From Opitutus sp. (GTDB lineage Bacteria > Verrucomicrobiota > Verrucomicrobiia > Opitutales > Opitutaceae): a stretch of 64,000 nucleotides of DNA. Location: assembly GCA_024998815.1 (NCBI GenBank), contig JACEUQ010000001.1, forward strand, positions 1,240,001 through 1,304,000, given 5' to 3'. A program made the translations under genes and the position numbers. Shown here in pieces: positions 360 through 56,540 of this stretch (position 1 is the first letter of the stretch; each line of letters starts with the position of its first letter). The notes below the pieces were generated by a model. The model searched no databases, was not told the DNA's origin, and saw only the letters and a program-made list of their open reading frames with translations.

Positions 360-390
360 TGGCCACAAAAAGCACAAAAATGCACAAAAA
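360..390 (+). repeat. Solitary copy of a GGCCACAAAAA-type repeat arm
   Basis: The A-rich 31-bp stretch beginning TGGCCACAAAAA closely matches the terminal repeat of the cassette at 41965-42427. Here I find only one arm. It overlaps the start of the next gene, so that the first codons (MHKKN) come from repeat sequence. Confidence 0.6.
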
Positions 391-36041: not shown

Positions 36042-36089
36042 GAACCGGATTTTTAACGCAAAGACGCGAAGACGCAAAGGACACGCCGC

Positions 36090-36476
36090 ATGGAATTAGA
36101 CGAAAACGCCCTCAGTCGCATCATCGTGGAATCCGCGATTGAGGTGCACCGTGAGCTGGGAGGGCCAGGGTTGTTGGAGAGCGTATATGAGGAAGCCCTC
36201 GTATTTGAACTCATGCTCCGTGGTCTGTCCGTTGAACGTCAGCAGCCGGTCCCTATTTTTTACAAGGGCCACGTCCTCGCAACGCCTCTGCGGCTCGATC
36301 TCTGCGTGAACAAGCGCGTGATCGTCGATCCGAAGGCGGTCACCGAATGGAATCCGATCTTTGAATCCCAGATGCTGACTTATCTTCGACTCACTCAGCT
36401 GAAGTTAGGACTCGTCATCAATTTCGGCGAACGTCTGGTGAAAGACGGTCTCCATCGCGTGGTTAATCGGCTATAA
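36090..36476 (+). CDS. GxxExxY protein (PDDEXK_3 family), possibly degenerate
   Basis: The 128-aa protein has GLLESVYEEAL (the GxxExxY motif, residues ~25-35), then VPIFYKGH and RLDLCVNKRVIVDPKAV. In the family this last block is usually D...(V/I)ELKA; here Glu-Leu is replaced by Asp-Pro, so catalysis may be impaired. The second member of the window (41998-42387) keeps the normal VELKA. Function of the family is unsettled; a nuclease fold is predicted. It is co-oriented with the cys operon. Confidence 0.85.
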   Translation: MELDENALSRIIVESAIEVHRELGGPGLLESVYEEALVFELMLRGLSVERQQPVPIFYKGHVLATPLRLDLCVNKRVIVDPKAVTEWNPIFESQMLTYLRLTQLKLGLVINFGERLVKDGLHRVVNRL

Positions 36477-36487
36477 ACTCCCGCGTT

Positions 36488-36502
36488 CCCCCCCCCCCCC
36501 CC
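36488..36502. repeat. Run of 15 C
   Basis: A 15-base C tract lies 12 bp after the GxxExxY stop, inside the cassette. It is outside any reading frame; its exact length may be unreliable in the assembly. Confidence 0.7.
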
Positions 36503-36590
36503 AGTTAATCTCCACCCAAATCCAATCCTTTGCGGACTTAGCGCCTTCGCGCCTTTGCGTTAACTCCGTCCCTTTTTCAATTTTCAACGC

Positions 36591-39542: not shown

Positions 39543-39612
39543 CCTTGAGCTCACGCTCAAGGCCACGGGAAGTTTGTTCAGGAAGGGTGTGGCCTTGAGG
39601 GTGAGCTCAAGG
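39543..39612. repeat. REP-like hairpin pair
   Basis: Two facing hairpins: CCTTGAGC-TCAC-GCTCAAGG with tail CCAC (39543-39566) and foot GTGG plus a partner with GGTGA-type loop (39589-39612). The pair lies between the convergent menA and CPBP protease genes. Confidence 0.8.
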
Positions 39613-40544: not shown

Positions 40545-40603
40545 AGTAGCGCAGACTTCCAGTCTGCTCCGAGAGGGAGTGCAGACTGGAAGTCTGCGCT
40601 ACT
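40545..40603. repeat. Perfect 23-bp inverted repeat (GCAGACTTCCAGTCTGC type)
   Basis: Arms at 40545-40567 and 40581-40603 match perfectly around 13 bp; each arm holds an inner symmetric GCAGACTTCCAGTCTGC. A related half-copy is in the nuclease gene at 19529-19555. It lies between the CPBP protease and pyrC. Confidence 0.8.
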
Positions 40604-40667: not shown

Positions 40668-41957
40668 TTAAGAAATCTTGCCGTGGTTAAACACCACTTT
40701 GCCGTCGACGATCGTGGTTTTCACGCGGCCTTGCAGGGTCTGGCCGTGCCACGGGCTGTTGCTGGATTTGCTAAACCCGGCTTTGGCGTCGTACACCCAC
40801 TTCTCGTCGGGATCGAACAGGCAGACGTCGGCGGGAGCGCCGACGGCGAGCGTGCCGGCTTCGAGCTTGAGCAGGTTGGCGGGCTTGCGCGTCAACAGAT
40901 CGATGACGTAGGGCAGCTTGAACTTGTTTTTGCGCACGAGGATTTCGAGCGAGATGGGCAGCGCGGTTTCGAGGCCGAGGATGCCGTTGGGGGCGTAGTC
41001 GAACTCCTTGTCCTTTTCGTAATCGGTGTGCGGGGCGTGGTCGGTGGCCAAAATGTCGAGGGTGCCGTCGCGCAGGCCTTCGATGATCGCCACGCGGTCC
41101 TCCTCGGTGCGCAGCGGCGGGTTCATCTTAAAGTGCGTGTCGTAGGTGCCCAGCGCCTCGTCGGTGAGCGCGATGTGGTGCGGGGTGGCTTCGGCGGAAA
41201 CCGAAACGCCACGGGCCTTGGCCCGGCGCAGGATCTCGACGGAGTTTTTCGAGGAGATGTGCTGCATGTGGATATGCGCACCGGTGTAGGTCGCGAGCAC
41301 GACATTACGCGCCACGATGATGTCTTCGGCCGCATTGGGCCACCCCTTGAGGCCGAGGCGGGTCGACACCACGCCTTCGTTCATGACCGCGCCGACCGTC
41401 ATCGAATGGTCCTGGCAGTGGTCCATGAGCGGCAGGTCGCACATTTTTGCGTACTCGCAGGCCCGGCGCATGAGTTCGTTGGACTGGACGCAGTCGCCGT
41501 CGTCGGTGATGGCGATGACGCCGGCTCGTTTGAGCGAGCCGATGGGCGCAAGGGCCTGGCCCTTCATACCGACGGTGATGCAACCGGTAGGATAGACTTT
41601 GATGCACGCGGTGCGGGCGATGGAGTCTTTGATTTGCTGAATGGTGCCGGCGGTGTCGGCGACCGGGGCGGTGTTGGGCATGCAGACGACCGAGGTGAAC
41701 CCACCGGCGGCGGCGGCGCGGGAGCCGGTCTCGATGGTCTCCTTGTGCATTTGGCCGGGCTCGCGGAAATGGACGTGGATATCGACCAAGCCGGGGCAGG
41801 CGACGAGGCCCTTGGCGTCGATTTTTTTGGCCTTCTTGAGCTCGGCGGCCGAGAGGGAGGCGACGAATTTACCGTCTTTAATGAAAAGGTCGCCGACCGA
41901 GTCGCGCTTGGCGGCGGGATCGATGACGCGGGCGTTGGAAATCCAGAGTGAAGGCAT
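40668..41957 (-). CDS. pyrC: Dihydroorotase
   Basis: I start at the ATG at 41957 (429 aa, MPSLWISNARV); the frame to 41993 would translate the cassette arm. Metal-binding DIHVHFREPG near residue 60, PNTAPVADT, HCQDHS, and the C-terminal LATDHAPH are all present; this is the class I (PyrC/PyrX-type) dihydroorotase. It closes the ring to dihydroorotate. A GxxExxY cassette lies between it and pyrB. Confidence 0.94.
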   Translation of the reverse strand: MPSLWISNARVIDPAAKRDSVGDLFIKDGKFVASLSAAELKKAKKIDAKGLVACPGLVDIHVHFREPGQMHKETIETGSRAAAAGGFTSVVCMPNTAPVADTAGTIQQIKDSIARTACIKVYPTGCITVGMKGQALAPIGSLKRAGVIAITDDGDCVQSNELMRRACEYAKMCDLPLMDHCQDHSMTVGAVMNEGVVSTRLGLKGWPNAAEDIIVARNVVLATYTGAHIHMQHISSKNSVEILRRAKARGVSVSAEATPHHIALTDEALGTYDTHFKMNPPLRTEEDRVAIIEGLRDGTLDILATDHAPHTDYEKDKEFDYAPNGILGLETALPISLEILVRKNKFKLPYVIDLLTRKPANLLKLEAGTLAVGAPADVCLFDPDEKWVYDAKAGFSKSSNSPWHGQTLQGRVKTTIVDGKVVFNHGKIS

Positions 41958-41964
41958 AGGAGGG

Positions 41965-42427
41965 TTGGCCACAAAAAACACAAAATGACACAAAAAATCA
42001 GGCGACCGGATCGGTCATCAGATATTTTTTAACATGCAGAGTAGGTGCACCGAAATTGATGAGTAAGCCGGTTTCGACCCGACTGGATTTGAGGTAGCCG
42101 AGGAGCTGGGCGACATGCTCATCGAGCACACACTTCGTGGCTTTGAGCTCCACGATCAGTTGGTCTTCAATAAAGAGGTCGGCAAAAAATTCGCCGAGCA
42201 GCGTGCCGTCCTCATCGTAAACGTGAAGCGGGTACTGCTGGTGCACTTTAAGCCCCTGCTTACGCAGCCGGTGGACAAGACCGTTTTCGTAGATTTTCTC
42301 AGCGTGGCCGTGCCGGTGGTAGCGATGGAGAGCAAAACTCGTTTCCCTGACGACGTCACAGAGTTGGTTAATATGCGCGAATTTCACGGTTCAGTTTTTT
42401 GTGTCATTTCGTGTTTTTCGTGGCCAA
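41965..42427 (-). mobile_element. Putative 0.46-kb cassette with 33-bp inverted ends carrying a GxxExxY gene
   Basis: The ends at 41965-41997 and 42395-42427 are 33-bp inverted repeats with two mismatches, starting TTGGCCAC(A/G)AAAAACAC. They frame the GxxExxY gene almost exactly (it ends 1 bp from the left arm and starts 8 bp from the right). The cassette fits the gap between pyrC and pyrB, co-oriented. A lone arm of the same repeat is at 360-390. No clear target duplication. Confidence 0.75.
41998..42387 (-). CDS. GxxExxY protein (PDDEXK_3 family)
   Basis: The 129-aa protein has GHAEKIYENGL (GxxExxY, residues ~27-37), then GEFFADLFIEDQLIVELKATKCV, which keeps the Asp...Glu-x-Lys pattern of a PDDEXK nuclease, and GYLKSSRVETGLLINFG. 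It is complete. The family is common and of unknown role. Sequence similarity to the cys-operon copy is limited to the family motifs, so the two are old relatives or separate arrivals. Confidence 0.88.
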   Translation of the reverse strand: MKFAHINQLCDVVRETSFALHRYHRHGHAEKIYENGLVHRLRKQGLKVHQQYPLHVYDEDGTLLGEFFADLFIEDQLIVELKATKCVLDEHVAQLLGYLKSSRVETGLLINFGAPTLHVKKYLMTDPVA

Positions 42428-42440
42428 AAACTCCGCCGCC

Positions 42441-43385
42441 TCACTCCGCCGGAACGACGCTTTCGGGTTGGCCGCCGGAGCACAGGTACAAGACCGCCAT
42501 GCGCACGGCGATGCCGTTGGTGACTTGCTCCAAAATGACGCTGCGCTCGCCGTCGGCCAGTTCGCTATCGATCTCGACGCCGCGGTTGATCGGGCCGGGG
42601 TGCATGATGATCGCCTTGGGGTTGAGCCAGCCGGCGCGGGTTTTGTTGAGCCCGAACAGGCTGGTGTACTCACCGAGCGAGGGGAACATGCCGCTGGATT
42701 GGCGCTCGTGCTGGATGCGCAGCAGCATGACCACGTCGGCATCGGAGAGCGCGCTGCGCAGGTCGTGCGACACGGTCACCCCCATCGGCTTGAGCGTGTG
42801 CGGCACCAAGGTGGACGGCCCCACAACGGTGACGTTGGCACCGAGTTTGTTAAGGGCGTGGATGTTGGAGCGGGCAACGCGGCTAAACAAAATGTCGCCG
42901 AGGATGACCACCTTGCGTCCCTTGAGGGAACCGAGGTGCTCACGCATGGTGAACGAGTCGAGCAGGCCCTGGGTCGGGTGCTCGTGGGCGCCGTCACCGG
43001 CGTTGATCACCGGGATTCCCAGGATTTTGGACAGGTACAGGGGAGAGCCGGCGGCGGCGTGGCGGATAACAATCAGGTCGGCCCCGAGCGCCTCGATGTT
43101 CTGCGCGGTGTCGCGGAGGGTTTCGCCCTTGGTGGTCGAGGAACTGGAGCCGTCCATCGAGATCACGTCGGCGCTGAGGCGCTTGGCCGCCATGTCGAAG
43201 GCCATGCGCGTGCGTGTGCTGGGTTCGAGGAATAGGTTGACGATTGTCTTGCCGCGCAAGGCGGGGACTTTCTTCACACTGCGCCCGAGGATTTTTTTAA
43301 ACGCGGTGGCGGTGGCGTGGATTTGGTTGATCTCGTCGAGGGAGAGTTCCTCGAGCGTGATGAGGTGGCGGCGGGTCCAGGGCAT
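42441..43385 (-). CDS. pyrB: Aspartate carbamoyltransferase catalytic subunit
   Basis: The 314-aa protein has the carbamoyl phosphate loop FLEPSTRTRMAFDMAA near 52-67, HPTQGLLDSFTM near 138, and LLRIQHERQ near 215. It makes carbamoyl-aspartate. No regulatory pyrI is seen. It lies ~65 bp after pyrR in a minus-strand pyrR-pyrB-(cassette)-pyrC cluster. Confidence 0.95.
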   Translation of the reverse strand: MPWTRRHLITLEELSLDEINQIHATATAFKKILGRSVKKVPALRGKTIVNLFLEPSTRTRMAFDMAAKRLSADVISMDGSSSSTTKGETLRDTAQNIEALGADLIVIRHAAAGSPLYLSKILGIPVINAGDGAHEHPTQGLLDSFTMREHLGSLKGRKVVILGDILFSRVARSNIHALNKLGANVTVVGPSTLVPHTLKPMGVTVSHDLRSALSDADVVMLLRIQHERQSSGMFPSLGEYTSLFGLNKTRAGWLNPKAIIMHPGPINRGVEIDSELADGERSVILEQVTNGIAVRMAVLYLCSGGQPESVVPAE

Positions 43386-51117: not shown

Positions 51118-51169
51118 GTGAGACGGCGAAGTTATACTAATGGGCGTTCACGTGGAGGCGTTCGGCCGA

Positions 51170-51361
51170 CCCTGAGCTCACGCTCAGGGCCACGGGGCGG
51201 AGGTGATGCCGAAGGCCGGAGGTGGCCTTGAGCGTGAGCTCAAGGTGCAGCGGCGTGCACAGGCGATCGCCTGTCGCCCTGAGCTCACGCTCAGGGCCAC
51301 ATTTCTCATTGGAAAAATCCTCGTGGCCACACTCCCCGTGGCCTTGCGCGTGAGCGCAGGG
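51170..51361. repeat. Two REP-like hairpin pairs
   Basis: Four hairpins: 51170-51193 (CCCTGAGC stem), 51222-51245 (CCTTGAGC stem), 51277-51300 (CCCTGAGC) and 51338-51361 (CCTTGCGC/GCGCAGGG). They alternate in direction and fill the 313-bp gap between the transporter and trpF. Confidence 0.85.
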
Positions 51362-51430
51362 CGTTCGCCTCAAAGGATACGCTCCCCCAAGAACCGATTT
51401 CGTTGGGCTCATCGTAAACGCGAACAGGGG

Positions 51431-52078
51431 TTAACCCGCCCCCAAAGCCGCTGCCAGGCGCGCTAGTTTGGCGTGGTCTTTCACCCCTGGCGACGTTTCG
51501 ACCCCGCTGTTCACATCGACAAAAAGCGTTCCGCTGCGCATGACGGCGTCGGCGAGGTTTTCTGGGCTCAGCCCGCCGGCAAGAATCCAGTTTTTTTGGG
51601 GAAACGCCTGCTGGTGCCGGGCGAACTTGGCCCAATCACCCGTTTTGCCGGAACCGCCAAACCCTGCGGCATGAAAAGTATCCATCAAAAACGTGTCCGC
51701 CAAAGTTAACACCGCCGCTGGCACCTCGTCGGCTGGCGGGAGTTTGGGTGCCAGCCAGAGCCGCCGTGGGCCCACCTGCGCCGACCAGCCCGCAACGGTC
51801 TCCACCGGAGTCGCGGGCGCGTAGTGGATTTGAAAGAAATCGAACCCGGCGTCGGCGGCTTGCGCGAGTTCATCGGTGGAGGGTTCCACCATCACCGCCA
51901 CGCGGCGCGGCCCGACCTGCAACGACGAAGCCAAGCCCCGATACGACGCGAGCGGAAGGTAGCGCGGCGATTTCCGGTACAGGATGAACCCCAAAAAGTC
52001 CGCGCCGATCCCCGCCGCCACGGCCGCGTCGGCCAGCGTGGTGAGACCGCAGATTTTAAGCTGAATGGCGTTGATCAT
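51431..52078 (-). CDS. trpF: Phosphoribosylanthranilate isomerase
   Basis: I start at the ATG at 52078 (215 aa, MINAIQLKICGLTT), with the catalytic Cys in KICG at residue ~9. GADFLGFILYRKSPRYL, FQIHYA, and the C-terminal ILAGGLSPENLADAV and VDVNSGVETSPGVKD are the PRAI hallmarks. It acts in tryptophan synthesis. Other trp genes are not in the window. Confidence 0.93.
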   Translation of the reverse strand: MINAIQLKICGLTTLADAAVAAGIGADFLGFILYRKSPRYLPLASYRGLASSLQVGPRRVAVMVEPSTDELAQAADAGFDFFQIHYAPATPVETVAGWSAQVGPRRLWLAPKLPPADEVPAAVLTLADTFLMDTFHAAGFGGSGKTGDWAKFARHQQAFPQKNWILAGGLSPENLADAVMRSGTLFVDVNSGVETSPGVKDHAKLARLAAALGAG

Positions 52079-52146
52079 GATTCGGGATTTTTCTTCTCGG
52101 GCGGGCACCGAGACTAATTAGCGTTCAAGTTGAGAGGTAACGGCAT

Positions 52147-52216
52147 CCTTGAGCTCACGCTCAAGGCCACACGCTTCGCGAACACACTCCTCGTGGCCTT
52201 GAGCGTGAGCTCAAGG
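52147..52216. repeat. REP-like hairpin pair
   Basis: CCTTGAGC-TCAC-GCTCAAGG with tail CCAC (52147-52170) and foot GTGG plus CCTTGAGC-GTGA-GCTCAAGG (52193-52216): a clean pair between trpF and the aminotransferase. Confidence 0.85.
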
Positions 52217-52294
52217 TGTTTACCCAATGGTATCCGCACCCCAAGAAACAGGTTAATTAAGCTCAGCAGCCCCCCGAGCGGAATCGCGCTACGG

Positions 52295-56367: not shown

Positions 56368-56485
56368 GTTGAACGTTGGATGTTCAATGTTGGATGTTGA
56401 ACGTTCTCCGTTCCGCTCAGTGCCTCCGGAGCAAAGCCACCCCGAATCAACGTCCAACATCCAACATCCAACATTGAACCTTCAA
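56368..56485. repeat. Inverted repeat of TTGGATGTT words
   Basis: The left arm (56368-56405) strings GTTGAACG, TTGGATGTTCAATG and TTGGATGTTGAACG; the right arm (56447-56485) is the inverted form (AACATCCAACATCC and so on). A known-looking type of intergenic repeat in this lineage, as far as I recall; lies between dGTPase and scpB. Confidence 0.8.
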
Positions 56486-56540
56486 CCAACCAGCCGAGGT
56501 CTGCGAAAGCGGCTTCCGGCCGGGTGAACCGCTCGATGTT

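Follow-up and report, generated by a model that had tools for sequence, protein, structure and literature searches.

Two described systems come closest to the locus analysed here. In the first, the REPIN/RAYT system (PMC3116915; PMC8266576), gene-less REPINs are proposed to be carried in trans by RAYT/TnpA-REP. The second is the S23 IVS, which in Coxiella measures 428-444 nt, has a 28-bp stem and is excised by RNase III, and which has long been suspected of being mobile (PMC4990558). The locus that we compare with them is a 463-nt cassette in the gap between pyrB and pyrC, in which 33-nt inverted arms frame one gene of the GxxExxY (PDDEXK_3) family. To our knowledge, this family is common and multi-copy and has no known role. 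GxxExxY has been named next to a CRISPR reverse transcriptase (PMC8934634). No description of a GxxExxY cassette with inverted arms was found in open-access full text, and the main text of a paper on Geobacter multicopy sequences mentions neither an inverted repeat nor a nuclease.

The cassette and its protein

The window, by which we mean the whole 64-kb stretch of DNA that was analysed, holds the minus-strand gene series pyrR, pyrB, a 129-aa ORF and pyrC. The features of the cassette and its neighbours, and of related elements in the same window, are as follows.

41998..42387, minus strand: GxxExxY / PDDEXK_3 gene, 129 aa, GTG start (from profiles and model)
42395..42427, no strand assigned: inverted arm on the 5' side of the gene, minus strand reading TTGGCCACGAAAAACACGAAATGACACAAAAAA
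About 42422-42416, 42413-42407 and 42403-42397: 7-mer units of the 5'-side arm
41965..41997, no strand assigned: inverted arm on the 3' side of the gene, plus strand reading TTGGCCACAAAAAACACAAAATGACACAAAAAA
41970-41976, 41979-41985 and 41989-41995: CACAAAA units of the 3'-side arm
42441..43385, minus strand: pyrB, aspartate carbamoyltransferase, upstream neighbour in the operon
About 40668..41957, minus strand: pyrC, dihydroorotase, downstream neighbour, ATG start at about 41957
36053-36563: second GxxExxY cassette, its arms differing from those of the pyrB-pyrC cassette
36053..36079, no strand assigned: left arm of the second cassette, units CGCAAAG / CGCGAAG with 1-nt spacers
36090..36476, plus strand: second GxxExxY gene, TIGR04256 133 bits
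36537..36563, no strand assigned: right arm of the second cassette
361..390, no strand assigned: lone gene-less arm of the same type as the pyrB-pyrC cassette, GGCCACAAAAAGCACAAAAATGCACAAAAA

A sequence-only reading of this DNA had described 33-bp inverted repeats with two mismatches around a single GxxExxY gene, set in the pyrC-pyrB gap in the direction of the operon, and on all of these points it was correct. The arms are complementary at 31 of 33 positions (94%) and 397 nt apart, and pyrB and pyrC lie on the same strand as the 129-aa ORF, which matches both PF13366 PDDEXK_3 (97.3 bits, cut-off 22) and TIGR04256 GxxExxY (109.9 bits, cut-off 35) and contains the G-x-x-E-x-x-Y motif as G27, E30 and Y33. 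The 3'-side arm reads CACAAAA-aa-CACAAAA-tga-CACAAAA and the 5'-side arm CACGAAA-aa-CACGAAA-tga-CACAAAA, which we summarise as three tandem copies of CAC[A/G]AAA per arm, not one unique sequence. The arm score of this cassette, 28-31, is above chance: when 748 random spans were taken from the same loci their 99th percentile was 16, and the 95th percentile of 130 other small genes in its own genome was 21.6.

An AlphaFold2 model of the 129-aa protein has a pLDDT of 95, and its best structural neighbours in Foldseek are SSO0001 (which we take to be a Cas4), AdnAB, lambda exonuclease, RecE and MGME1, at sequence identities of 11-19%. By sequence, a search of solved structures with the GxxExxY protein gave no match, a PHROGs search likewise gave none, and a Cas4a2 profile reached an E value of 0.034 only. 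Across 75 copies of the protein, G27, E30, Y33, D70, E80, K82, Q94, Y98 and N111 are kept in nearly all, with D70 and K82 invariant; the fold and the D, (D/E)-x-K and Q-x-x-x-Y elements of PD-(D/E)XK proteins of the RecB type are thus all present. The protein models as a compact nuclease core of the RecB/Cas4/lambda-exonuclease type, which suggests that it would act on DNA ends or single strands and not on one long duplex target. In the second GxxExxY gene of the window, the second catalytic motif is D-x-K in place of E-x-K.

Other repeats are also found in the window. Classical REP-like palindromes (AGTAGCGCAGACTTCCAGTCTGC and CCTTGAGCTCACGCTCAAGGCCAC) lie at 40545-40603, 39543-39612 and 51169-52217; they are common across the genome and unrelated to the arms described here. 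A gene-less hairpin at 56368-56486 is built from short tandem units (GTTGAACGTTGGATGTTCAATG) of the class seen below around S23 genes.

Inverted arms and their coupling to the protein

The genome from which the window comes (4.24 Mb, 3 contigs) has ten TIGR04256 matches: seven are intact genes, an eighth is interrupted by a stop, and the last two are the halves of a split gene. All seven intact copies have inverted arms directly outside the gene, which vary from copy to copy, each being a tandem 7-mer: CACAGAG, CGCAAAG (three copies), CGCTAAT, CGCGAAT or CACAAAA. The parts of the split gene (L009 and L010, G000 C1:832419-834084) are separated by 1.3 kb, and CGCGAAG-type arms lie close to their outer ends. 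TIGR04256 is present in 40 of the 56 relatives sampled, and in a sample spanning the phylum GxxExxY occurs in 52 of 115 genomes; copy number reaches 12 per genome. The earlier reading had proposed testing whether inverted ends flank such genes more often than other genes of the same size, and had named GxxExxY genes lacking them as evidence to the contrary. In the event, flanking arms with a score of at least 14 (median 24) accompany 84 of 93 GxxExxY genes or fragments from this genome and its relatives, against 34 of 748 random spans of the same loci, for which the 99th percentile is 16. A held-out phylum-wide sample gave a score of at least 16 in 22 of 25 copies, again with a median of 24. 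Among the other small genes of the genome, 13 of 130 reach 16 and nine reach 20; three of these nine are S23 genes, and others lie in hairpin or REP arrays. The usual arm is three copies of the 7-mer CRCDDAD with spacers of 1-4 nt, and such CRC units occur in 71 of 78 GxxExxY arms.

Beyond the phylum, a Bacteroides finegoldii plasmid copy, with radA and an FAD-protein gene as neighbours, has arms of CACAGAG/CGCAGAG/CACGGAG; a Sphingomonas copy between fabD and fabG retains one arm with CGCGAAG-like units; and a Treponema copy has a short arm pair. Recognisable arms are absent at the Fusobacteria and Persicobacter copies (2/5 plasmid copies, other phyla). Since several kinds of intergenic hairpin are common in the genome, an inverted repeat of a commonplace kind, for instance a terminator or a hairpin stabilising the transcript, or one arisen by chance, might have come to surround an unrelated gene. 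The arm enrichment, the unit structure, the replication in held-out copies and the coupling to protein clade described next all contradict this, and we regard its probability as negligible.

Co-diversification of arm unit and protein was assessed with copies grouped by homologous flanking DNA, which separates same-site inheritance from copies at different sites. Pairs of proteins at least 60% identical that lie at non-homologous sites have units differing at 1.32 of 7 positions, compared with 2.29+-0.12 when permuted (0/10000). On a maximum-likelihood tree of 75 proteins, in which many forks are unresolved with 108 columns only, the 7th base of the unit requires 7 changes versus 32.9 when shuffled. 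When each of the 36 site groups is represented by a single copy, the 7th base requires 7 versus 13.0+-1.0 (0/2000) and the 4th base 10 versus 13.9 (24/2000). The other positions (2 and 5 among them) and the whole 7-mer gave no tree signal with one copy per site. For 14 of 16 held-out copies, the closest proteins already known gave the correct 7th base (permutation p 0.0002). A Mantel test over all pairs yielded a weak signal (rank correlation 0.07, with 69/2000 permutations as high), since proteins less than about 50% identical have unrelated arms, and it was replaced by the close-pair and tree tests. Arm unit and protein therefore co-diversify, which is the pattern that recognition of the arm unit by the GxxExxY protein would produce. 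As to the recognised repeat of the earlier reading, there is indeed a repeat, but it is a clade-specific tandem 7-mer and not one end sequence.

Genes for the four-helix S23 protein (23S_rRNA_IVP, PF05635) are likewise framed by inverted arms of tandem units, both in this genome (L131-L135) and in relatives (L166-L194). An arm score of at least 16 was found for 25 of 31 S23 genes, and these cassettes sit outside rRNA. Their units are of another class (AGTAGCG, GTTGAAAG, GGAGTCA, AGGCTGT and GGACCAAT), CRC-type units occurring in 1 of 25 S23 arms versus 71 of 78 GxxExxY arms. Given that S23 proteins are not nucleases, the shared cassette plan implies that this architecture does not in itself require a nuclease. 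It also lends weight to an account in which the GxxExxY cassette is IVS-like and the arms matter as an RNA duplex, RNase III removing the stem from the transcript so that the cassette is tolerated in operons. The RNA of the cassette folds with its arms fully paired (-178 kcal/mol, z -5.9), its size and stem match the Coxiella IVS (PMC4990558), and cassettes lie mostly in the direction of the operon (24 versus 4 sites). Mismatches in the arms, however, are of the wobble type in 65 cases and of the non-pairing type in 111, a bias opposite to that expected from transcript pairing but, the copies not being independent, not a decisive one; and a pure RNA stem would not call for 7-mers in which base 7 tracks the clade of the protein. 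We therefore think it unlikely that the arms serve as such an RNA stem, and it is equally doubtful that, as this account would have it, the gene is a passenger or acts on RNA while mobility comes by another route.

Occupied sites, empty sites and gene-less copies

Empty sites, which the earlier reading had suggested looking for at related pyrB-pyrC loci, were found: the gap is only 20-27 nt in six same-genus genomes, one of which has a pyrB 97% identical. One relative (G012) has the same cassette and another (G009) a related one with CGCAAAA-type arms, and the same protein clade occupies the pyrB-pyrC junction in nine other public loci, with pyrB identities of 76-99%. Members of this clade located elsewhere, including those in Planctomycetota and Kiritimatiellales, have mostly GGCC- or AGCC-CRC-type arms (L085, L089-L093). 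No target-site duplication is recognisable at the pyrB-pyrC junctions or at those of the urease operon considered below, the flanks having diverged. The pyrB-pyrC cassette looks old and site-faithful with a patchy presence, which may result from losses, gains or both; its site-faithfulness indicates that movement is rare or old, and genome comparisons revealed no movement of the element. Of the idea of a small mobile cassette, therefore, one part stands and another does not. The GxxExxY gene and its arms are inherited and relocated together as one unit, as follows from the arm enrichment, the tracking of protein clade by arm sequence at unrelated sites and the existence of empty sites. Recent transposition of the pyrB-pyrC copy is not supported, since the same clade is found at nine other pyrB-pyrC loci.

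The sequence-only reading had also offered a nuclease that homes through a recognised repeat. A site-specific homing nuclease would cut the empty pyrB-pyrC junction and be copied in by repair, with the arms as a by-product, and homing genes do form site-faithful clades that are present or absent in close relatives, as here. Homing does not require inverted arms, however; members of the same clade are found at further sites and in further phyla, where most of them keep that arm type; and the empty junctions have no obvious conserved target. The fold is of the RecB/Cas4 exonuclease kind, and structural neighbours of the RecB/Cas4/lambda-exonuclease type argue weakly against a site-specific homing endonuclease. 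Homing is on these grounds very unlikely.

Gene-less elements with cassette-type arms are abundant in the genome. The genome-wide numbers come from pattern searches and from a 464-kb sample chosen around known sites. A strict pattern (three CRCDRAD units with 3-nt spacers) matches 94 times versus 0 for the reversed pattern, and a relaxed one (CRCDDAD, spacers of 1-4 nt) 421 times versus 11; many of the matches are inverted pairs around a short loop, about 80 nt in total. The 464-kb sample contains 20 short CRC-unit hairpins, among them types that match several resident cassettes and one type, CACGGAA, whose gene-bearing form was found only in relatives. Across the 56 relatives, strict arm matches occur in 36 of 40 genomes with GxxExxY versus 3 of 16 without (Fisher p 5e-7, relatedness ignored). 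The strict pattern returned zero arm matches in four genomes that carry GxxExxY, and some genomes have arm families for which no matching gene was found; both points, like the armless plasmid copies of other phyla, speak against the reading favoured below.

How such gene-less copies might arise is illustrated by an operon on contig C3 (about 237.5-243.5 kb, of which L211 9300-13300 covers about 239-243 kb), whose genes, read from the sequence, are presumably those of urease. Several of its intergenic gaps are filled with one hairpin type (GCCGCGAAAGATCGCAAGGAGCGCAAAGAACG), and one gap also holds a gene-bearing GxxExxY cassette (L006). The gene-less hairpins share the inner sequence CGGAATCAAGCCGCAGAAGGAC with this cassette and look like internal deletions of it. 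Adjoining the cassette, a 265-bp unit that includes part of the neighbouring gene forms an array of about four tandem copies, which must on that account have arisen by local duplication, so that some gene-less copies need no GxxExxY activity. The cassette gap is clean in three same-genus relatives, and a fourth retains a 15-nt remnant (GGCGGCCAAAAAACC) of the right end of the element. The gap before the cassette (L211 10170-10340; L270, L278) has a CRC hairpin in this genome, whereas in two relatives the hairpin there is of the AGTAGCG type and in two more the gap has none; the differing contents of the same gaps imply that hairpins have been gained and lost there. Elements of this kind are thus present or absent in the intergenic gaps of close relatives.

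Another explanation is that some other transposase (e.g. RAYT/TnpA-REP or a MITE transposase) moves the hairpins and that GxxExxY is cargo caught between two of them. The genome has five Y1-type transposase matches, larger MITEs contain CRC hairpins, and two separate hairpins can by chance frame an ordinary gene. One gene-sized pair, C1:415480-416137, was rejected as a cassette on that last ground. A larger MITE with ends of the GATACCATTT type, or like GATACCATTTCGCGTTCAAA, encloses a CRCTAAT hairpin and forms a nested composite family (L101, L106, L111, L113, L122, L125). Many of the CRCTAAT hairpins of the genome lie within this GATACCATTT-ended MITE, and their number is consequently in part the work of that MITE, with no GxxExxY activity needed. 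Nevertheless, the five Y1 genes are not CRC-framed and their flanking repeats, where present, are of other types; RAYT was accordingly rejected as the mover of the CRC hairpins. Moreover, almost every CRC-armed pair of gene size that an inverted-repeat scan picked out either encloses GxxExxY or consists of separate hairpins of the urease array, and cargo predicts neither the coupling of unit to protein nor the genome-level association of GxxExxY with arms. We judge the cargo explanation distinctly unlikely.

A putative mechanism and comparison with known systems

Taken together, the evidence favours the view that the 463-nt cassette is probably the gene-bearing form of a REPIN/MITE-like mobile intergenic hairpin element with a cognate nuclease of the RecB type. 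We infer that the GxxExxY nuclease moves this DNA and recognises the 7-mer, and a possible sequence of events can be outlined. The arms, comprising two or three tandem CRCDDAD 7-mers, would pair into a hairpin where replication leaves the DNA single-stranded. The predicted nuclease would recognise its own tandem 7-mers, most likely in that hairpin, and trim or cut there, so processing the ends of the element, which host repair would then paste into intergenic gaps. Gene-less copies would be carried along in trans, as proposed for REPINs with RAYT/TnpA-REP, here by an unrelated nuclease. More broadly, it is conceivable, at somewhat less than even odds in our estimation, that a widespread and so far undescribed class of hairpin-ended mobile DNA has GxxExxY proteins as its mobility enzymes, these reading clade-specific 7-mers and mobilising gene-less hairpins, with the S23/IVS elements as a second branch that uses another protein and another arm code.

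These results give the GxxExxY family an anatomy, a partner sequence and a code, in that the protein allows a prediction of which base stands seventh in the arm unit. Should the nuclease move the arms, much of the intergenic hairpin content of these genomes would be accounted for, and mobile DNA would be driven by a type of nuclease for which we know of no role in transposition. The S23 cassettes outside rRNA make the old question of S23 IVS mobility testable from a new side.

Against known systems, the cassette stands as follows. It resembles the REPIN/RAYT system in having one gene with flanking hairpin repeats, in a repeat type tied to the partner protein and in the abundance, between the genes of the same genome, of inverted pairs of that repeat that enclose no gene. 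It differs in that the partner is a predicted PD-(D/E)XK nuclease of the RecB type, with no Y1 HUH transposase gene inside, and in that the arms are tandem CRCDDAD 7-mers, REP being one short palindrome; mobility of the cassette, for its part, is putative. With the S23 IVS it shares a length of about 430-460 nt, a terminal stem of about 30 bp that pairs in RNA and one small ORF in the loop (PMC4990558), but it lies between operon genes and not in 23S rRNA, encodes PDDEXK_3 and not the four-helix PF05635 protein, and has other arm units. As in the MITEs of DNA transposons, gene-less copies (in the urease operon) share their ends and an inner boundary with the full-length copy; unlike MITEs and IS, the full-length copy has no DDE transposase and a single PDDEXK_3 gene between its arms. 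Cas4, lambda exonuclease, RecE and MGME1 provide the nearest folds, with the E, D, E-x-K and Q-x-x-x-Y elements conserved, although the cassette protein is a minimal 129-aa core only 11-19% identical to its matches. Unlike homing endonuclease genes, copies of a GxxExxY clade are not confined to the alleles of one cognate site. Because its enzyme separates the cassette from REPIN/RAYT, and its location and protein separate it from the S23 IVS, we place it as a variant of hairpin-type mobile DNA, and there is a real chance that this type of cassette deserves a class of its own.
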